54,648 nucleotides of DNA from Kineosporia sp. A_224 (GTDB lineage: Bacteria > Actinomycetota > Actinomycetes > Actinomycetales > Kineosporiaceae): contig NZ_MWLN01000204.1 in NCBI RefSeq assembly GCF_002198655.1, forward strand, positions 25,628 to 80,275. The letters run 5' to 3'. The number at the start of each line of letters is the position of its first letter. Position 1 is the first letter of the stretch. Shown here piece after piece: positions 25,359 to 41,139 of the stretch. Under the pieces are notes generated by a model. The model was not told the DNA's origin. It saw only the letters and a list, made by a program, of their open reading frames with translations, and made no database searches. Position numbers and translations under genes: made by a program.

Positions 25359-25464
25359 GCAGGTACCCAAGCACTCCGCGCCCGGCCGGTCGAGCCGATG
25401 TCGGTCGTCGGGCCGACGTCGATAGGCTGGCCGCAGACCCCGACCGGCAGGAGAGCCGAACACC

Positions 25465-25713
25465 ATGGGACGTGTCGTCGTCGACGTCATGCCGAAGCCG
25501 GAGATCCTCGACCCGCAGGGCAAGGCCGTGGCCGGCGCCCTGGCCCGGCTCGGGTTCGCCGAGCTCGCGAGCGTGCGGCAGGGCAAGCGCTTCGAGCTCG
25601 AGGTGACCGGCGAGGTCACCGACGAGGTGCTCGCCCGGGTCCGTGAGGCCGCCGAGACGCTGCTGTCCAACCCGGTCATCGAGGACGTCGTCCGGGTCGT
25701 CGCCGCGGACTGA
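25465..25713 (+). CDS. purS: Phosphoribosylformylglycinamidine synthase subunit PurS
   Basis: This 82-residue small subunit of the three-part FGAM synthase bridges PurL and PurQ. Typical features are the N-terminal strand VVVDVMPKPEILDPQGKAV and LARLGFAELASVRQGKRFEL, ending with PVIEDVVRVV. ATG at 25465 follows GGAGAG. TAGGCT upstream (about 25425) resembles the -10 of purQ. Unusually, purQ is not next to it: about 4.1 kb of unrelated genes separates them, and a hairpin follows this stop. Confidence 0.96.
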   Translation: MGRVVVDVMPKPEILDPQGKAVAGALARLGFAELASVRQGKRFELEVTGEVTDEVLARVREAAETLLSNPVIEDVVRVVAAD

Positions 25714-25748
25714 CCCGAACGGGCGCACCAGCGCTCGGCCGTTCGGGT
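25713..25748 (+). terminator. Hairpin after purS
   Basis: ACCCGAACGG (25713-25722) pairs perfectly with CCGTTCGGGT (25739-25748) around 16 bases. It shows that purS is not co-transcribed strongly with the genes that follow. Confidence 0.6.
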
Positions 25749-25814
25749 ATCTGCGCAGGTCATCGGCCCTTCGGCAGGGTCAAGACACAACGGCTGCCTG
25801 CCGATAGGTCACCT

Positions 25815-26846
25815 GTGGGGCCATCCACTCGAGGCGTCGTCGTGCCCGCGCGCCGGCGAGCCGTGACCGCGGGGCGCCAGTCCCTGGTCGTGGCGTGCCT
25901 CGTGCTCCTCGTCGGCTTCGCCTGGGCGTTCGCGTCCCCTGCCGCTGGTGCCGAGTCCGAGGGCGGCGTCTCGCTCTTCGACGACGACGGCGGCCGGGCC
26001 CTGTTCACCGCCGCGGACCGGCTCGCCCCGGGCCGGCCGCTGTCCGCATGCGTACGGGTCGGCACCCGGACGGCGCGGGCGGGCGACGCGGTCTGGTTCG
26101 CCGCCGTCGACGTGTCGGGGGCGCTCGCCCCGCACGTCACCGTGACGCTGGAGTCGGGCGAGGGCGGTCGCTTCGGGGACTGCACCGGCTTCACCGGGAC
26201 GACGCTGTGGACCGGCACCCTCGACCGGCTCGCTGCGGCGTCCGCGGGGAACGGCCTGGCGACCGGCTGGGCCCCCGCCGCGGAGCCGGTCCGCAGCTTC
26301 CGCGTCACCGTCCTCATGGACCCCGACCTGCAGGTGCAGGGGCTCACGGCCCGCGGGGACCTCGTCTGGCGGCTCGACCGCGACGTCGTCGTCGACCCGC
26401 CCGGGCCGACCGACACCCCGACGACCGAGCCCCCGAAGACGCCGCCCGTCGTCGACCCGACGCCGCCCCCGACGCAGTCCCCCACGCAGTCGCCCACCCA
26501 GACCCCGACCGGGACGCCGACCCCGGCCCCGACGACGACCGTCACCCCGGGCCCGACCGGGACCCCGGCCGTCGACGAGCCCGACGTCGACCTCGACGCC
26601 GGCGCCCCGTTCCTGCGGGCTGTCCGGGAGGCCGCCCAGCGCGCGAGCGCCGTCGCGGTCGCGGTCGTCCGGGAGCCGCAGTACCCGCTCGCCGCCCTGC
26701 TCGTCGCGGGCCTGTTCCTGCTCGTCCAGGACTTCATCGACCGGCGCGACCCCAAGCTCGCCGCGGCCAGCACGACCCGGCGGGAGACCAACACGGTCTT
26801 CCCCGACGTGTTCGCCCCGGGCCGGGCCGGCGGGCGGACCGGATGA
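25815..26846 (+). CDS. Membrane-anchored TasA/camelysin-like surface protein
   Basis: The protein has 343 residues. A signal peptide (VVACLVLLVGFAWAFASPAA) is followed by a beta-rich domain of about 130 residues whose landmarks match the TasA-like protein encoded at 29050: LFTAADRLAPGRPLSACVRV, LAPHVTVTLESGEGGRFGDC, TLWTGTLDRLA, AEPVRSFRVTVLMDPDLQVQ. A long Pro/Thr/Gln linker follows, then a hydrophobic segment (YPLAALLVAGLFLLVQDF) and a basic tail. This suggests a TasA-fold domain held on the membrane, perhaps an anchor for fibres of the secreted relative. The TasA relation is my alignment by eye. It overlaps the diguanylate cyclase gene by four bases. GTG at 25842 is an alternative start. 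Confidence 0.7.
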   Translation: MGPSTRGVVVPARRRAVTAGRQSLVVACLVLLVGFAWAFASPAAGAESEGGVSLFDDDGGRALFTAADRLAPGRPLSACVRVGTRTARAGDAVWFAAVDVSGALAPHVTVTLESGEGGRFGDCTGFTGTTLWTGTLDRLAAASAGNGLATGWAPAAEPVRSFRVTVLMDPDLQVQGLTARGDLVWRLDRDVVVDPPGPTDTPTTEPPKTPPVVDPTPPPTQSPTQSPTQTPTGTPTPAPTTTVTPGPTGTPAVDEPDVDLDAGAPFLRAVREAAQRASAVAVAVVREPQYPLAALLVAGLFLLVQDFIDRRDPKLAAASTTRRETNTVFPDVFAPGRAGGRTG

Positions 26847-28513
26847 GCGCGGCCGCCAAGGGCGCCGCCGGCGTCGAGATCGTGCCGCTCGGCGACCGCG
26901 TCGCGGCGATGGTCGGCTTCCGGGTGCTCTACCTCGTCGTCCTGCACGGCATGCTGCTCGCGCTGCACCTGCCGCAGCTGCGCACGGTGCTCGTGGCGAG
27001 CGCCGTCTACCTCGCGCTGACGACGCTGCTCAGCCTCGCCGTCCGGGTCGCCAGCACACCGGTCGCCGCCCGCTGCTTCGGCGTTGCTCTCCTCGTCGAC
27101 GGGCTGTTCGTCACGTACCTGCGGGAGACCCTCGGGCACCGCGCCGGCGTCGACATCGGCCCGCTCGCCCTGCTCGTCGCCGTCGTCCTCCTCGCCTCGT
27201 TCCGCACCGGGATCAAGGTGGCGCTGTGGCTCTCGGTGCTCTTCCTCGTGGCGCTGCGCAGCCAGGAGACCGGCCTGCTCCCGCCCCCCGCCGTCCTGCC
27301 CGGCGGTCTGGACGGCGAGCAGCGGCTGGCCGTCGACCTGCTGAGCCTGTGGCTCGTGACGATCACGACCGCCGCGGCCGCGGCGGCGGCGGAGCGCGAG
27401 CTGCGCCGTCGCCGCTTCGACGCCGAGGCGCTCGCCCGCTTCGCCGAGCGGCTCCACCTCGCCACCCGGGTCGAGGAGGTCGCCGGGCACCTCGCCGGGT
27501 TCGCCGGCGTGAGCATCGGCGCGACCCGCGCCGTCGTGCTGCGGACCGTCGGGGGCTCCGTCCAGCTCGTCGCGGACGTCGCCTCCGACCGTCGCGGGCA
27601 GGGCTCCGGCGCCGACCGGCGGCGGCTGCCGGTCGTCGTCGCGGACGCCGGCACGTCCGCCCTCCTCGACCTGCCCCGCAGCGCCGACAACCTGGCGCTC
27701 GCGCTGCGGCTCGACCCGGAGCGGGACCCGTGGCTGAGCGCCCTGCTCCCGGACGCGCGGCGGATCGCCGTCGCGGACATCACGGACGCACCGGGCGAGC
27801 GGATCGTCCTCGTCGTCGCCCTGCGCGGCCGCGGGGACCGCACCGAGAACCGTGCCCTGGAGACCTTCGCGCAGGCGACGGCCACTGCGTCCCTCGCCTG
27901 GTCGCGTGCCGACCTGCTCGTGGCGGCCGAGCGCCGGGCCTCGACCGACGGCCTCACCGGCCTGGCGAACCGCCGCACCTTCGACGACATGCTCGCCCGG
28001 CTGCACGAAGGCTGGACGACGTCCGGCACGCCGTACGCGCTCGTCCTCACCGACGTGGACAAGTTCAAGTCCGTCAACGACCGGTACGGGCACCAGGCCG
28101 GTGACGAGGTGCTCCAGATCGTCGCGCGGGTCCTCATGGAGCACGCCGGGGCGTTCGGTGCGACGGCGGCCCGGTACGGCGGCGAGGAGTTCGGCGTCCT
28201 GCTGCCGGGCGGCACGACCGACGAGGCGATGGCGCTCGCGGAGAAGGTCCGGCTCGCGCTCCACGGCGTCACCGAGCCGGTGCCCGTCACGTCGAGCTTC
28301 GGGGTCGCGGCGGTGCCCGAGCACTGCACCGAGCCGGCCGCGCTCGTGCACGCGAGCGACGCGGCGCTCATCCACGCGAAGAACACCGGCCGGGACCGGG
28401 TCGTGGCCGCAGGCGACTACGCGATGCCTGCGGGCGGGTCGGCCGCTCCACCGTCCGGTGCCGTGCCGCCCCCGCGGCGCAGGGACCTGCGGGCCCCGGC
28501 CCCCGGGAGCTGA
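26843..28513 (+). CDS. Membrane GAF-like/GGDEF diguanylate cyclase
   Basis: The protein has 556 residues. The first 190 contain about six hydrophobic helices. A GAF-like sensor region follows (RFAERLHLATRVEEVAGHLA). The GGDEF domain has STDGLTGLANRRTFDDML, LTDVDKFKSVNDRYGHQAGD and the active site YGGEEFGVLLPGG (GGEEF at residues 446-450). It should make cyclic di-GMP from two GTP. The RxxD inhibitory site is absent: FGAT stands at the RxxD position before the GGEEF, so product inhibition is probably lost. It is translationally coupled to the TasA-like anchor gene, suggesting that cyclic di-GMP controls surface structure. Confidence 0.92.
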   Translation: MSAAAKGAAGVEIVPLGDRVAAMVGFRVLYLVVLHGMLLALHLPQLRTVLVASAVYLALTTLLSLAVRVASTPVAARCFGVALLVDGLFVTYLRETLGHRAGVDIGPLALLVAVVLLASFRTGIKVALWLSVLFLVALRSQETGLLPPPAVLPGGLDGEQRLAVDLLSLWLVTITTAAAAAAAERELRRRRFDAEALARFAERLHLATRVEEVAGHLAGFAGVSIGATRAVVLRTVGGSVQLVADVASDRRGQGSGADRRRLPVVVADAGTSALLDLPRSADNLALALRLDPERDPWLSALLPDARRIAVADITDAPGERIVLVVALRGRGDRTENRALETFAQATATASLAWSRADLLVAAERRASTDGLTGLANRRTFDDMLARLHEGWTTSGTPYALVLTDVDKFKSVNDRYGHQAGDEVLQIVARVLMEHAGAFGATAARYGGEEFGVLLPGGTTDEAMALAEKVRLALHGVTEPVPVTSSFGVAAVPEHCTEPAALVHASDAALIHAKNTGRDRVVAAGDYAMPAGGSAAPPSGAVPPPRRRDLRAPAPGS

Positions 28514-28517
28514 GCCG

Positions 28518-29048
28518 TCAGCGGCCCGCGGGCCGCACGACGCCGAGCGTCAGGCAGGCGAGGACGGCGACGCCCGCCCATGCGAGGTCGCCGCGGGTCG
28601 GCCCGTGGCGGAGCATCGCGAGCCGGCCCGCGGCCGGCACGACGAGGCGGACCCGGCCGACGACGTCGGCCGGGTGCCGGGGCGCGCGGTCCGCGGTGGG
28701 GTTCGCGTCGCCCTTCGTCACGAGGTCGCCGTTGCCCTTGACCTCGACGACGCGGTGCGCGACCCGGCCGGAGGGCTGGGACGCGTCACGGACGAGGACG
28801 ATCTCGCCGCGGTGCAGGCCGGTCGCGCCGGGGTCGACGACGACGACGTCGCCGGGGCGGATCGTCGGGAGCATCGAGCCGGTGACGACGACGGCGGGAC
28901 GCCAGCCGACCACGAGCGGCCCGAGCGACCACAGCGCGAGGCACGCGAGGACGAACAGCCACGCGACGGCCGCCGTCAGCGCGACCGGTTCGGCGCGCTC
29001 GCGCAGACCCGGTGCGGGCGCGAGGTCGACGCAGACGCCGGACTGCAC
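28518..29048 (-). CDS. SipW-type signal peptidase I
   Basis: The protein has 176 residues with an N-terminal helix (VAWLFVLACLALWSLGPLVV) and a C-terminal helix. VVVTGSMLPTIRPGD contains the catalytic Ser. RVAHRVVEV places a His where ordinary bacterial type I enzymes have Lys, and LVTKGDANPTAD follows; this Ser-His pattern marks the ER/SipW class. Such enzymes process TasA-type precursors. Its GTG lies one base after the TGA of the TasA-like gene, so substrate and protease are co-expressed. It converges with the diguanylate cyclase gene, four bases apart. Confidence 0.92.
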   Translation of the reverse strand: MQSGVCVDLAPAPGLRERAEPVALTAAVAWLFVLACLALWSLGPLVVGWRPAVVVTGSMLPTIRPGDVVVVDPGATGLHRGEIVLVRDASQPSGRVAHRVVEVKGNGDLVTKGDANPTADRAPRHPADVVGRVRLVVPAAGRLAMLRHGPTRGDLAWAGVAVLACLTLGVVRPAGR

Positions 29049-29049
29049 G

Positions 29050-29682
29050 TCAGGAGTTCTGCGCTTCCCAGACGAACGTCGCGGCGGCCGACTGGCCCAT
29101 CGCGGAGTTCGTGTCCTGGAGCGTGTACGTGACCCGGTAGCTCCGGGCCTCGGGCGAGGCGCCGGTCGGCGCCCACGACGAGACCCCGGAGCCGAAGTCG
29201 GTGTGCGCGGTCGCGAACGAGGTGAGGGTCTGGCCGCCGGCGCTGAGCGTCGACGTCGCGGAGAAGCCCGAGCACGACAGCGTCGCGCCGCCGGTCGCCC
29301 CCGTGCCCTCCTCGACGGTGAGGTCGAGGTACTGGCCGAGGGTGCCGGACGGGGACGTCACGTAGAGCCGGACGCCGCCCGCGAGCGTGCCGGAGTAGGT
29401 GACGTTGATGCACTTGATCCCGGTGTCGCCGGGCTTGAGGCCGGTCGCCTGGAACATCACCGAGCTCGAGTCGTCGTCGGAGATCGCGACCGTGCCGGAG
29501 GACCACGTGTTCGAGCCGTTGTCGGTCGACGCCGTGAACGCGGCGTTCGAGGCCTGGTAGACGAGGGCGCTGCTCGCGACGAGCGCGAGGGGGAGGGCCA
29601 CGACCATCGTGCGGCGGCGGCCGCCGTCCCGGCGGCGACCGCGGCGGTTGCCGCGGGGCCGGTGCTGCACGCTGGCGGTCAT
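29050..29682 (-). CDS. Secreted TasA/camelysin-like (SipW-dependent) protein
   Basis: The protein has 210 residues. A very basic N-terminus (RGNRRGRRRDGGRRR) precedes a hydrophobic stretch and SNAAFTASTDNGSNTWSSGT, the SipW-dependent signal region. The mature beta-sandwich has FQATGLKPGDTGIKCINVTY, LGQYLDLTVEEG, TLSCSGFS and YRVTYTLQDTNSAMGQSAAA, as in TasA/camelysin (M73-like) proteins. TasA builds amyloid-like biofilm fibres in Bacillus; the actinobacterial relatives are poorly known. ATG at 29682 follows GGAAGGA. The next gene encodes its likely signal peptidase. Confidence 0.88.
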   Translation of the reverse strand: MTASVQHRPRGNRRGRRRDGGRRRTMVVALPLALVASSALVYQASNAAFTASTDNGSNTWSSGTVAISDDDSSSVMFQATGLKPGDTGIKCINVTYSGTLAGGVRLYVTSPSGTLGQYLDLTVEEGTGATGGATLSCSGFSATSTLSAGGQTLTSFATAHTDFGSGVSSWAPTGASPEARSYRVTYTLQDTNSAMGQSAAATFVWEAQNS

Positions 29683-29836
29683 GGTGGGGTCCTTCCCGAG
29701 TCGATCTCCTGCCAGACAGATCGGCATCCGCGGGGTGCCGGTTGACGGTTCGCGGGCCGCCGCCGGGGCGGTGCGGGGCGGACCATCCGGACGGCGGTAC
29801 GCCCGCCCGGTCGCCGCCACGAAGGGTGACGCCGGA

Positions 29837-29842
29837 TAGGCT
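29837..29842 (+). promoter_or_regulatory. -10 element of leaderless purQ
   Basis: TAGGCT, in the context GATAGGCTG shared with the purS upstream region, ends six bases before the GTG at 29849. Confidence 0.5.
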
Positions 29843-29848
29843 GCCCGC

Positions 29849-30565
29849 GTGAGGATCGGAATCGTCACCTTCCCCGGCACGCTCGACGACGTGGACGCCG
29901 CGCGCGCCGTCCGGGTGGCGGGCGGCGAGGCCGTCGCCCTGTGGCACGGCGACGCGGACGTCAGGGATGTCGACGCCGTCGTCCTGCCCGGCGGGTTCTC
30001 CTACGGGGACTACCTGCGCTGCGGTGCGATCGCCCGGTTCTCCCCGGTGATGAGCGAGATCGTCCGGCTCGCCGGCCCGCCGGAGCAGACTGCTCCCGGC
30101 CTGCCCGTGCTGGGCATCTGCAACGGCTTCCAGGTGCTCTGCGAGTCGCACCTGCTGCCGGGGGCGCTGATCCGCAACGACCACCGCAAGTTCGTCTGCA
30201 AGGACCAGCGGCTGCGGGTCGAGCGGACGTCGACGGTCTGGACGAGCGAGTACGCGGCGGGCGAGGAGATCGTCGTCCCGCTGAAGAACGGCGAGGGCGG
30301 CTTCGTCGCGGACGACGCGACGCTCGACCGGCTCGAGGGCGAGGGCCGCGTCGTGTTCCGCTACCTCGACGGCAACCCGAACGGCTCGTACCGGGACATC
30401 GCGGGGATCGCCAACGCGAGCGGGACCGTCGTCGGCCTCATGCCGCACCCCGAGCACGCCGTCGAGGCGCTCTTCGGCACCGACCGCGACGCCCGGGGCC
30501 GCTACGACGGCACCGACGGCCTGCGGTTCTTCACGTCGGCGCTGGGCGCGGTGCTCTCCGCCTGA
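29849..30565 (+). CDS. purQ: FGAM synthase glutaminase subunit PurQ
   Basis: This class I glutamine amidotransferase supplies ammonia to PurL in the fourth purine step. It has 238 residues. [19 protein letters not shown] begins the protein, [17 protein letters not shown] follows, [10 protein letters not shown] holds the catalytic Cys, and [11 protein letters not shown] holds the His and Glu of the triad. The GTG at 29849 appears leaderless. It is divergent from the TasA/SipW operon and separated from purS and purL, its complex partners. Confidence 0.97.
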
Positions 30566-30671: not shown

Positions 30672-31076
30672 ATGCCCCGCTTCATGCTGCTGCAGAACTT
30701 CGAGGGCGGCGCCGGCTGCGACGTCCCGATGTACGAATGGGCCCCGCAGGACGTCGAGGCGCACATCCGGTTCCAGGTCGACCTCAACGCCGAGCTCGAC
30801 GCGGCCGGCGAGCTCGTCGACGCCCAGGGCCTGTCCGGCCCGGACCTCGCGAAGGTCGTCACCGCCGACGGCGTCTGCGCGCCGGTCGTCACCGACGGCC
30901 CGTACCTGGAGGCCAAGGAGTTCCTCGCCGGGTACCGGGTCGTCGACGTCGACTCCCTCGACCGGGCGCTGGAGATCGCCGCCCGGGCCTCGGCGGCGCC
31001 CGGTGCGAAGGGCGTCCCGATCCAGCAGCCGATCCACGTGCGCCAGATCATGGCCGTGCCCGGGTCGGACTCCTGA
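30672..31076 (+). CDS. YCII/DGPF-family protein
   Basis: The protein has 134 residues. RFMLLQNFEGG, VDLNAELDAAGELVDAQGL, VTDGPYLEAKEFLAGYRVVD and the closing PIHVRQIM are typical of the YCII-related family called DGPF, here with DGPY in place of DGPF. Genes for these proteins regularly precede ECF42-type sigma factors and are needed for their function in some systems. ATG at 30672 follows GAGGAGG. The sigma factor gene begins 22 bases after the stop, so they are probably one operon. Confidence 0.88.
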   Translation: MPRFMLLQNFEGGAGCDVPMYEWAPQDVEAHIRFQVDLNAELDAAGELVDAQGLSGPDLAKVVTADGVCAPVVTDGPYLEAKEFLAGYRVVDVDSLDRALEIAARASAAPGAKGVPIQQPIHVRQIMAVPGSDS

Positions 31077-31098
31077 CCGCAGCCCCGCCGGCGCCGTC

Positions 31099-32325
31099 GT
31101 GACCGACCGCACCGAGGACCTGCTGCGCGACCTCGCGCCGCGGGTCCTCGGCGCGCTCGCCCGGCGCTGGGGCGACTTCGCGGCGTGCGAGGACGCCGTC
31201 CAGGAGGCGCTGCTCGCCGCCGTCGGCGCCTGGGCCCCGCCGCCCGGCGGGGCCGGCGTGCCCGCCGACCCGACGGCCTGGCTGCTCCAGGTGGCGCACC
31301 ACCGGCTCGTCGACCACTGGCGCAGCGAGACGGCGCGGCGCCGGCGGGAGGAGGTCGTGGCGGTCGAACCGCCGCCCGCGGACGCGACGGCGACCGACGA
31401 CACGCTCGTCCTGCTCCTGCTGTGCTGCCACCCGGCCCTCACCCCGGCGTCCGCGGTGGCGCTCACGCTGCGCGCCGTCGGCGGCCTGACGACGGCGGAG
31501 GTCGCCCGGGCCTTCCTCGTGCCGGAGAGCACGATGGCGCAACGGATCTCGCGGGCCAAGGCGACCTTGCGGGCGCAGGCGGCACCGTTCGCGATGCCGC
31601 CCGCCGACGAGCTCGCCGACCGGCTGCGCGTCGTCCTGCACGTGCTGTACCTCGTCTTCAACGAGGGCTACACGAGCACGGGCGGGGAGGGGCTGCACCG
31701 GGTCGAGCTCTCCGCGGAGTCGATCCGGCTGACCCGGCTGCTGCACCAGGCCCGACCGGACGACGGCGAGGTCGCCGGGCTCCTCGCGCTCATGCTCCTC
31801 ACCGACGCCCGGCGCCCGGCACGCACCGGGCCCGCCGGTGAGCTCGTCCCGCTGCCCGAGCAGGACCGCTCGCTGTGGGACGCCGCCCTCGTCGCCGAGG
31901 GGGCCGCCCTCGCCGACGCCGCGCTGGCCCGGCGCCCGATCGGCGAGTACGCGCTGCAGGCCGCGATCGCCGCCGTCCACGACCGGGCGCCGTCCGCGGC
32001 CGCGACGGACTGGCGGCAGGTGCTCGCGCTCTACGCGGCGCTCGAGCGGCTGTCGGGCAACCCGGTCGTCACGCTCAACAAGGCGGTGGCGCTCTCGATG
32101 GTCGAGGGCCCGGACGCCGCCCTCGCGCTGCTCGCCACCCTCGACGGCGGCCCGCTGGCCGCCGGGCACCGGCTCGACGCCGTCCGGGCGCACCTGCACG
32201 AGAGCGCCGGCGACCACGTCGCGGCCGCCGCCGCGTACGCCCGCGCGGCCGGCCGGACGACGAACGTCGCCGAGCGCGACTACCTCACGCTGCGTGCCGC
32301 GCAGCTGCGCATCACGGGGCCGTGA
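31099..32325 (+). CDS. ECF42-like sigma factor with C-terminal TPR-like extension
   Basis: The protein has 408 residues. The sigma-2 region is RWGDFAACEDAVQEALLAAV and the sigma-4 region is GLTTAEVARAFLVPESTMAQRISRAK. A long helical extension (DUF6596/TPR-like) follows with LVFNEGYTSTGGEGLHRVEL, LLALMLLTDARRPARTG and NPVVTLNKAVALSMVEGPD. There is no anti-sigma gene nearby. ECF42 members are controlled through their extension and the adjacent DGPF protein, matching the gene before this one. GTG at 31099 is chosen by family length. Confidence 0.92.
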   Translation: MTDRTEDLLRDLAPRVLGALARRWGDFAACEDAVQEALLAAVGAWAPPPGGAGVPADPTAWLLQVAHHRLVDHWRSETARRRREEVVAVEPPPADATATDDTLVLLLLCCHPALTPASAVALTLRAVGGLTTAEVARAFLVPESTMAQRISRAKATLRAQAAPFAMPPADELADRLRVVLHVLYLVFNEGYTSTGGEGLHRVELSAESIRLTRLLHQARPDDGEVAGLLALMLLTDARRPARTGPAGELVPLPEQDRSLWDAALVAEGAALADAALARRPIGEYALQAAIAAVHDRAPSAAATDWRQVLALYAALERLSGNPVVTLNKAVALSMVEGPDAALALLATLDGGPLAAGHRLDAVRAHLHESAGDHVAAAAAYARAAGRTTNVAERDYLTLRAAQLRITGP

Positions 32326-39523: not shown

Positions 39524-39591
39524 AGCCGCAGCCTAGGGCGGTCATCCGGGTGCGCCATCAAGGGGGAGCCCGGGGAGGCCGACTCAGGAGC

Positions 39592-41139
39592 ATGAGGCCG
39601 CAGCAGCCAGGTGCCGCGGCCCTGGTGCGGCGGGCCGCCCTCGTCGCGACCGGGGTCTACCTGAGCGCGCTCCTCGTCGGGCCGAGCGGTCACCACATCT
39701 GGCGCGAGCTGGTCCTGCAGGTCCTGGCGATCGAGCTGTGCGCCGCGTACGTCTGGGTGCTCGCGGCCCGTGACCGCAGGCACCGCGGCTGGCGGGTCCC
39801 GGTCGCCGTGTGGATCACCTTCTTCGGGCTCGGGAACGTCGTCGCGAACGCGCACACCGGCGACGTGCAGCCGCAGTGGACCGTCGTCCCCAGCCTGCTC
39901 CTCTACGTCGTCTGCTACCCGTTCGCCGTCGTCGCGGTCGCCATGCTCCTGCGCGGCCGGCTGCGGGCCGCCCGCCCGGGCCCGGCGGTCGACGCCGTCG
40001 TCGGCGCGCTCGCCATCGGGGCCGCGTTCGTCTGCTTCGTCGTCCCGCCGGCGGTGGAGTCGGCGCGCGCGGGCGGCGTCCCGGTGGCGCTGATCCTCGC
40101 CTTCCCGATCTGCGACGTCGTCGTCCTCACGCTGCTCGTCGCCGGGATCGCCGTCTCCGGCCCGGAGCGGATCTCCGGCTGGTTCGCCCTGGGGATCGCC
40201 CTGTTCGGCTCTGCGGACTGGTGGTTCGTCGTCCGGATCAGCCTGGGCGACTGGCAGACCGGGACACCCGTCGACGGCGTCTGGGTGCTCGGCGCCGCCG
40301 TCGTCTCGCTGCTCGCCGCGCCGGTGCCCGACGGCAACGGCCGCACGGCGAGCCGCACCTGGAGCGCGGCCGCGCTCGTCGTCCCGTTCGCCGCGTCGTT
40401 GACCGCCCTGACGATCCTCGCGGTCGGCTCCCGGGCCCGGCTGCCGATGGCGGGAGTGGTCCTCGCGGTGACCGCGATCCTCGCCGCCCTCTCCCGGCTG
40501 GCCCTCGCCTACACGTCCGAGCGCCGGCACGCCGAGGCCCACGTGCAGGCCCGCACCGACGAGCTCACCGGGCTGGCGAACCGGCGCGGCCTCTACGAGG
40601 CGCTGGACGCCGCCCTCGAGCCGCCGCTCGCCGTGCCGGTCGTCGTCCTGCTCGGGGACCTCGACCGGTTCAAGCAGGTCAACGACACCCTGGGGCACTC
40701 CGCCGGGGACGACCTGCTCCGCGAGGCGGCGCTGCGGCTGCTGGCCTGCGTGCCGGAGGACGCCGTGCTCGCCCGTCTCGGCGGCGACGAGTTCGCGGTC
40801 CTCCTGCCCGTGCCGGACGGCGACCCGCGCGACGGCGGGCACGCCCTCGCGCTGGCGCTGGTGCGCACGCTGGACGCGCCGTTCTCGGTCGGCGGCGTGC
40901 GGGTGTCGGTCTCGGTGACGTTCGGCGTGGCGCACGCCCCGGACGACGACGGGCCGGTCGCGCGCGGCGACCTGCTGCACCGGGCCGACCTGGCGATGTA
41001 CTCGGCGAAGCGGACGCCGCGCCGTGTCGCCGTGCACGGGCGGCCTCCCGGCGACGCGCCGCAGGACGTCCACGCGGGCACGCACGGCGTCCCGCGGCCG
41101 GCCGGCGAGCCCTCCGGACTGCCCGCTCCCGGGGCCTGA
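39592..41139 (+). CDS. Membrane GGDEF diguanylate cyclase
   Basis: The protein has 515 residues. The N-terminal 300 carry about eight to nine hydrophobic helices (VVPSLLLYVVCYPFAVVAVA, ALILAFPICDVVVLTLLVAG, WSAAALVVPFAASLTALTIL). The C-terminal GGDEF domain shows RTDELTGLANRRGLYEAL, LLGDLDRFKQVNDTLGHSAGD and LARLGGDEFAVLLP (GGDEF at 397-401). It should synthesise cyclic di-GMP; no clear RxxD inhibitory site precedes the active site. No periplasmic sensor domain is recognisable. The ATG at 39592 is very close to an AGGAG (39586-39590), so the start is slightly uncertain. Confidence 0.9.
   Translation: MRPQQPGAAALVRRAALVATGVYLSALLVGPSGHHIWRELVLQVLAIELCAAYVWVLAARDRRHRGWRVPVAVWITFFGLGNVVANAHTGDVQPQWTVVPSLLLYVVCYPFAVVAVAMLLRGRLRAARPGPAVDAVVGALAIGAAFVCFVVPPAVESARAGGVPVALILAFPICDVVVLTLLVAGIAVSGPERISGWFALGIALFGSADWWFVVRISLGDWQTGTPVDGVWVLGAAVVSLLAAPVPDGNGRTASRTWSAAALVVPFAASLTALTILAVGSRARLPMAGVVLAVTAILAALSRLALAYTSERRHAEAHVQARTDELTGLANRRGLYEALDAALEPPLAVPVVVLLGDLDRFKQVNDTLGHSAGDDLLREAALRLLACVPEDAVLARLGGDEFAVLLPVPDGDPRDGGHALALALVRTLDAPFSVGGVRVSVSVTFGVAHAPDDDGPVARGDLLHRADLAMYSAKRTPRRVAVHGRPPGDAPQDVHAGTHGVPRPAGEPSGLPAPGA

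Follow-up and report, generated by a model that had tools for sequence, protein, structure and literature searches.

To our knowledge, how bacteria sense the assembly and attachment of their matrix fibres is largely open. Four small genes of Kineosporia sp. A_224 bear on this question. They lie in a stretch of 54,648 nucleotides of contig NZ_MWLN01000204.1 (hereafter the window, whose numbering is used unless a locus is named). Two of them encode a free, secreted TasA-like protein (P0004) and a SipW-type signal peptidase; the two that face them encode a membrane protein with a TasA-like domain (the anchor) and a membrane diguanylate cyclase (DGC). Why should a protein with the fold of a fibre subunit be joined genetically to an enzyme that makes cyclic di-GMP (c-di-GMP)? 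We tentatively propose, at somewhat short of an even chance, that the anchor and the overlapping DGC are two subunits of one transmembrane receptor, which would read the fibre made by the convergent TasA-like/SipW pair. The original prediction had described the four genes as one cassette between purS and purQ and had taken it for a c-di-GMP-linked surface-fibre system; that observation was confirmed, while the interpretation was partly supported. Other genomes and loci are cited by our handles (G and L, respectively).

An anchored and a free TasA-fold protein in one cassette

All four frames are present as two convergent gene pairs, and all lie between the two pur genes (Table 1). The stop of the anchor gene and the ATG of the DGC gene overlap by four bases (ATGA), in keeping with the overlap originally described. 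A single base (29049) separates the stop of the TasA-like gene from the start of the SipW gene, also as predicted, and the DGC and SipW stops are four bases apart.

The anchor had been described as a TasA-like domain followed by a P/T-rich linker and a membrane helix. It gave no meaningful match to family models, the only one being a 9.5-bit low-complexity match in the linker, and none of 11 anchors matched the camelysin family PF12389 at E ≤ 0.1. By BLASTP, the anchor aligned with P0004 at E 1e-11 (34% identity, 149 columns), and profile comparison of 11 anchors with 17 free TasA-like proteins (hhalign) gave 99.9%. We then compared predicted folds, using models of moderate confidence for the anchor domain and the free protein (pLDDT 75–76). 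For the anchor domain, modelled from five sequences from the window and relatives in the named genomes (pLDDT 75, pTM 0.74), Foldseek against the PDB placed TasA first (8aur, E 5.3e-4). VIA-align placed TasA structures at ranks 1–3, namely 5of2 (Z 9.1, root-mean-square deviation 3.0, 124 aligned), 5of1 (8.9) and 8aur (8.1), with the best unrelated structure at Z 7.4. The model of the free protein also had 8aur as its first Foldseek match (E 1.4e-4). The anchor domain is thus TasA-like in predicted fold, which is the outcome that the structural comparison suggested with the original prediction had been meant to decide.

P0004 scored 18.0 bits against PF12389 (cut-off 22.5) and 14.2 bits against NF046066 (cut-off 450). 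As both scores are under the curated cut-offs, we call the protein TasA-like and claim no membership of the TasA/camelysin families by sequence. Among its free relatives, 7 of 17 matched PF12389 at E ≤ 0.1 (best 1.4e-7). A PDB sequence search with the two TasA-like profiles returned no TasA (2 and 1 matches, unrelated, E 0.36 or worse); the link to TasA therefore rests on the fold and on the PF12389 matches of the free relatives. Two features expected of a TasA/camelysin system were found: a predicted TasA beta-sandwich in the anchor domain and the free protein, and a SipW-type peptidase as partner. The peptidase scored 65.2 bits against TIGR02228 (SipW/archaeal-ER type signal peptidase I; cut-off 51.85) and 40 bits against the Bacillus SipW model NF046067 (cut-off 190). 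The pairing of an anchored TasA-fold protein with a free one is therefore well supported.

In a tree of TasA domains (37 rows, 12 anchors and 25 free proteins, with the near copy L025 and hits weaker than 1e-8 left out), the window's anchor grouped with the G789 anchor from another class (support 96/91) rather than with the free TasA beside it. Two label changes were needed on the best tree, and a single anchor clade was not rejected (p-AU 0.545). No label shuffle out of 500 was as clustered as the tree, a figure to which near-copies contribute. The anchor domains thus look like an old, separate paralogue, as far as these alignments can tell.

Recurrence of the four genes

A survey of genomes for the four-gene set had also been suggested. 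TasA, SipW, anchor and DGC genes were found together within about 7 kb in nine genomes from six families and two classes, in varied gene order. Neither outcome named beforehand as refuting the original prediction, an anchor domain with no structural match to TasA or a gene set seen at no other locus, occurred. In G011 and G012 the same cassette lies between the same pur genes, with matched pieces 92–100% identical. In G002, from another genus, the arrangement is kept at 43–65% identity of the matched pieces; here MBL, purC and purD are on a contig that starts inside the anchor gene, and purQ was not seen beside TasA. Conservation of the arrangement in these three genomes is far beyond chance. 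Elsewhere the order differs: TasA and SipW, a further TasA facing away, anchor and DGC in G105; two TasA, SipW, anchor and DGC in G182; SipW, TasA, anchor and DGC in G484; DGC, TasA, SipW and anchor in G774, from another class; and TasA, SipW, an exported protein, anchor and DGC in G789. Blastococcus and Amycolatopsis are among the matches listed in the scan of named genomes.

Four more genomes (G091, G076, G052 and G718) have a TasA-type anchor with the TasA/SipW pair farther off or on another contig, so that the pair is present in 13 of 13 genomes found with such an anchor. At E ≤ 1e-26, SipW was found in 11 of 11 TasA-type genomes (E limit 1.3e-28, G076) and in 2 of 29 other genomes with a tail or sensor gene of the kind described below (Fisher 3e-8); at E ≤ 1e-8, 12 of the 29 had a match, the two strict ones included. 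When the genomes that had served as profile sources and their genus were excluded, the counts were 5/5, with two of the five belonging to a family that fed the SipW profile, and 2/29 (Fisher 7.5e-5). The converse fails: TasA/SipW pairs without an adjoining anchor occur at L023 and L024 (in the window's family), L027 (in the same genome as the window) and L035.

These counts bear on an alternative in which the anchor and DGC form a surface-contact receptor that never touches the fibre. The TasA-like ectodomain would then bind another ligand (wall, polysaccharide or other cells), as the immunoglobulin-like (Ig-like) ectodomains described below presumably do, and TasA/SipW would adjoin it through shared regulation. 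The free-standing TasA/SipW pairs and the exchangeability of the ectodomain class fit such a receptor. The presence of the pair in every TasA-type genome, non-adjacent cases included, and its rarity at the strict limit in genomes with other anchors or a sensor alone argue against it, and we consider it unlikely.

Several further fibre genes were seen at these loci. The second fibre locus of the same genome (L027, G000:C113, 893–4869) has two TasA-like genes and SipW; it adjoins a gene resembling flagellar flhA by eye, and no DGC match was found on its 7.5 kb contig. Proteins that are LamG/lectin-like by eye are encoded at L022 (7761–9347, adjoining TasA and with a SipW-type aromatic start) and at L023 (6509–7759, in one open frame with SipW); both are possible fibre-tip adhesins. 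At L152 (8905–10986), an exported protein that is FN3-like by eye and has a SipW-type start lies between SipW and the anchor.

A conserved tail gene next to a membrane sensor gene

The C-terminal end of the anchor, a single helix and a tail with Q-x-x-I-D-R-R-D-P-K-L-A, defines a family wider than the TasA-type anchors. The Q and I-D-R-R-D-P-K-L-A were invariant in 12 aligned tails; more distant members vary the motif. The helix and tail alone, used as query, found members in 14 of 394 class genomes, and a broader tail alignment found them in 19/396 phylum genomes, in 3/5 and 3/30 genomes of two orders and in 6/66 of another class (these samples overlap and are not summed). The survey covered 45 tail genes. 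A membrane sensor gene follows immediately in 40 cases, and in 32 of these the two genes share an in-frame NTGA four-base overlap; L066 also starts with the overlap, although its DGC is divided between two frames. As the window's genome has 56 GGDEF places, the partner of the tail gene is not just any cyclase.

The pairing was also seen from the other side. A search with the sensor membrane domain found 19 of the 394 class genomes, among them all 14 from the tail query. Their 22 sensor genes comprised 18 with a tail gene, three without and one (L137) cut by a contig end, so that the tail gene lies upstream in 18 of the 21 decidable cases. A chance product of a single clade was ruled out as the explanation by the phylum-wide sample and the other-class loci of G774 and G789. 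Unpaired members are also seen: tail proteins at L128 (4754–4903) and L129 (5165–6091) have no adjoining sensor, with a sensor elsewhere in their genomes, and L132, L133 and L134 are sensor DGCs of the same family with no anchor gene upstream.

On either side of this constant core, the proteins vary. The ectodomains are TasA-like (13 genomes), Ig-like repeats or short repeats. The classes were assigned by eye except for the TasA type and for L052 and L061, where Pfam gave Big_13; L153 is FN3-like by eye. The output is GGDEF or else HisKA_3 plus HATPase, the latter in L112, L115, L118, L119, L126 and L131 (by Pfam) and in L127 (from its sequence). The anchors of the histidine-kinase members are short repeat proteins. 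No response-regulator gene was seen by eye directly beside these members in the stretches viewed; an OmpR-type one lies near L119. In a 41-row sensor tree (L054, L066, L127 and L137 left out as cut, frameshifted or masked), the output changes once, to histidine kinase, and the ectodomain changes at least six times, rows without an anchor being counted as an ectodomain state; the tail is retained. Such a pattern, in which tail and membrane domain are fixed and both the outer part and the output are free to vary, has the look of a receptor interface.

The signal might instead run the other way, from the DGC to the fibre, the direction implied in the original prediction. In this alternative a local c-di-GMP pool would control fibre making or anchoring, with the anchor merely a structural foot. 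The DGC is indeed linked with TasA, SipW and anchor in nine genomes, and c-di-GMP usually promotes matrix production. However, the same tail and membrane domain go with a histidine kinase in one clade, the same type of DGC is used by ectodomains that are not TasA-like, and the anchor has only a short tail, with no c-di-GMP binding domain among its Pfam matches. Inside-out control is on these grounds an improbable account of the locus. The histidine-kinase variant and the swapped ectodomains favour outside-in sensing, a direction that is argued for and not proven. Thus, of the c-di-GMP-linked fibre system first suggested, the anchored and free TasA-fold proteins with a DGC stand, whereas the coupling of anchor and DGC is not specific to TasA, being shared with Ig-like and short ectodomains and with a kinase clade.

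The DGC and its membrane domain

The DGC matched PF00990 at E 1e-37 with its signature intact as GGEEF. It lacks the RxxD inhibitory site, as had been reported. This is no feature of the system: RxxD is kept in 30 of 32 listed DGCs that share the membrane domain, and is absent only in the window's and in that of L021, from the same family. A design role for the missing site was thus ruled out, and its loss is, on the sequences compared, peculiar to the window's family.

In most of the members compared, though not in the window's own, the sensor membrane domain shows some likeness to that of PilS: the model PF25323 (6TM_PilS) was matched at E ≤ 1 by 8 of the 12 domains scanned (best 1.7e-8). 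When whole sensors were scanned, L112, L118, L115 and L057 were above the cut-off of 27 bits, with L057 paired to a TasA-type anchor; L126 and L122 were below it, and L062, L119, L131, L151 and L152 gave no match at E 0.01.

A possible acceptor without a donor strand

In Bacillus, TasA polymerises by strand donation, each subunit giving its N-terminal strand to the following one. By sequence, 22 of 23 free proteins have an aromatic-start segment immediately before the first strand, just past the signal peptide, at the place that the donor strand occupies in TasA; in the 23rd (L034), the segment precedes a long linker. The donor strand of B. subtilis TasA comprises residues 28–38, according to the part of the source available (PMC9674648). 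By eye, no anchor out of 13 has an aromatic donor segment before the first strand. The anchor therefore appears to lack a donor strand, and could accept a subunit without passing the chain on.

A fold shared with the fibre subunit would also suit an assembly factor, a TapA- or CapP-like helper or terminator of TasA-like fibres, with the DGC overlap as operon convenience. TapA helps to start filaments in B. subtilis (PMC10151520; PMC9674648) and CapP has a similar job in B. cereus (PMC13082335), as far as the accessible portions of these papers describe them. TapA, however, donates its N terminus (PMC10151520, same proviso), a property that the anchors seem not to share, and the four-base overlap with one particular sensor family persists where the ectodomain is not TasA-like. 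We regard a role confined to assembly as very unlikely.

Proposed receptor

In the two-subunit receptor that we propose, SipW would process the free TasA-like protein, which would polymerise with its N-terminal strand donated to the next subunit. The anchor, with the same fold and no apparent donor strand, would accept a fibre subunit through an acceptor groove of its ectodomain but could not extend the chain; it would form the end at which the fibre is held to the cell, or a probe for the fibre. Polymerisation would fall to the free protein and anchoring to the anchor. Because of the gene pairing, we infer that the C-terminal helix and the tail, VQ(D/N)RIDRRDPKLA and probably cytoplasmic, dock on the multi-helix membrane domain of the anchor's own DGC. 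Binding or pull of the fibre might then alter c-di-GMP synthesis.

A number of observations weigh against this receptor. A purely regulatory link with no physical contact would yield the same synteny. The pairing has exceptions: G048, G121 and G132 have a sensor and no anchor, and for five tail genes the next gene is not a sensor (L128, L129, L130, one of L131, and L151, where the sensor is two genes upstream). G718 (84% complete) has a TasA-type anchor and no sensor found by a search that also missed the cut G778 sensor. Nor are the genomes all independent, as several belong to a common family or genus (the family of G105 includes G091 and G076). The window's own membrane domain did not match PF25323 even at E 1, and among TasA-type DGCs scanned whole, L062, L151 and L152 are in the group with no match, while L122 reached only 16.3 bits. 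In the f1 anchors, the window's own family, an A-F is found at the end of the hydrophobic core, which leaves doubt; the donor-strand argument thus seems weakest where it matters most. Finally, resolution in the TasA-domain tree is poor, with 12 of its 34 inner branches starred, and a single anchor clade appeared in only 12% of bootstrap trees.

Taking these points into account, and a shade more cautiously still, we suggest that the cassette represents an actinobacterial family of two-protein surface receptors. Its members would share a common transmembrane coupling, the single helix and Q-x-x-I-D-R-R-D-P-K-L-A tail on a PilS-like membrane domain, and their outer domains and outputs would be exchangeable. 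For the TasA branch we picture a donor-strand fibre whose foot is the anchor's outer domain, able only to accept a subunit; the cell would in this way read its own matrix fibre directly into c-di-GMP. Since a fibre-fold protein is here joined genetically to its own signalling enzyme, four small genes open fibre sensing to direct test. With the conserved tail as a handle, such receptors could be sought in many actinobacteria and chimeric ones built.

Features of the locus

The coordinates of the cassette and its flanking genes are collected in Table 1. The start codon of the anchor gene is uncertain, with GTG 25842 as the alternative to GTG 25815. A scan of 25400–30000 found no promoter and one weak terminator-like stem, which carries no argument. 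Elsewhere in the window, a second GGDEF protein (39550–41139) lacks the sensor membrane domain of the cassette DGC, and downstream of purQ (30672–32325) are genes for a YCII-related protein and, after it, a DUF6596-containing sigma-70-like protein.

Table 1. Positions of the cassette genes, their domains and the flanking pur genes in the window
Feature	Coordinates	Strand	Basis or remark
purS, upstream of cassette	25465–25713		PF02700
TasA-fold membrane anchor, 343 aa	25815–26846	+	Open frame; conserved in G011, G012, G002
Anchor, signal peptide/first hydrophobic segment (residues 23–41)	25881–25937	+	Hydropathy
Anchor, TasA-like beta domain with two conserved cysteines	25941–26381	+	Sequence comparison and predicted fold
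Anchor, proline/threonine-rich linker (limits approximate)	26399–26590	+	Sequence
Anchor, C-terminal transmembrane helix (residues 290–308) and tail with Q-D-F-I-D-R-R-D-P-K-L-A	26682–26843	+	Hydropathy, alignment
Membrane DGC, 556 aa	26843–28513	+	PF00990; ATGA overlap with anchor
DGC, membrane domain at the N terminus (some five to six helices)	26843–27442	+	PF25323 matched by 8 of 12 relatives at E ≤ 1, not by this domain
DGC, GGDEF domain with GGEEF signature and without RxxD inhibitory site	27938–28399	+	PF00990
SipW-type signal peptidase, 176 aa	28518–29048	-	TIGR02228 above cut-off
Free TasA-like secreted protein (P0004), 210 aa, A-A-F segment after signal peptide	29050–29682	-	
purQ, downstream of cassette	29849–30565		GATase_5

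Comparison with known systems

Among the open-access titles and abstracts listed in our literature search, none described a TasA-fold anchor together with a DGC, or the tail family. The nearest fibre systems are TasA-SipW-TapA of B. subtilis and TasA/CalY/CapP of B. cereus, in which a TasA fold likewise goes with a SipW-type peptidase encoded next to the fibre gene, and with another protein of the locus that handles the fibre. CapP, with its TapA-like job, is exported and retained in the cell wall, according to the available part of PMC13082335. Unlike TapA and CapP, the anchor is itself TasA-like; it is a membrane-spanning protein that seems to lack a donor strand, and its gene overlaps that of a DGC. 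The N-terminal strand donation that characterises TapA has no visible counterpart in the anchors, whose sequences, the one source for this point, show no donor segment.

As a receptor, the closest likeness is to PilS-PilA of Pseudomonas, where six transmembrane segments of PilS permit direct interaction with the pilin PilA (PMC6058289, in the part available). In both cases a sensor with several helices goes with a surface-fibre subunit that has one, and the likeness extends to the 6TM_PilS matches of 8 of 12 relatives at E ≤ 1. However, PilS is a kinase and its partner PilA one of the type IV pilins, whereas here the partner, TasA-fold or Ig-like, ends in a C-terminal helix plus tail and the output is mainly GGDEF; direct contact is known there, while here there are gene pairing and overlap, with the window's domain below the Pfam model. 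RgsP-RgsM of Sinorhizobium, a 7TM receptor with GGDEF-EAL that works with a membrane-anchored peptidase, similarly combines a multi-helix c-di-GMP protein with a membrane-anchored partner on the outer face; it differs in having 7TMR-DISMED2, in being a phosphodiesterase and in involving no fibre, as described in the accessible text (PMC6107284).

A locus of Blastococcus (L034, 9821–13546) resembles the cassette in having TasA, SipW and a GGDEF gene that overlaps a second TasA-like gene by four bases. Its DGC has no sensor-domain match, and its second TasA-like protein has no tail and carries the proline-rich linker N-terminally; it is perhaps an independent version of the same idea. Set beside these systems, the parts of the Kineosporia cassette are of known kinds; their combination, and the modular receptor family to which it points, look new.

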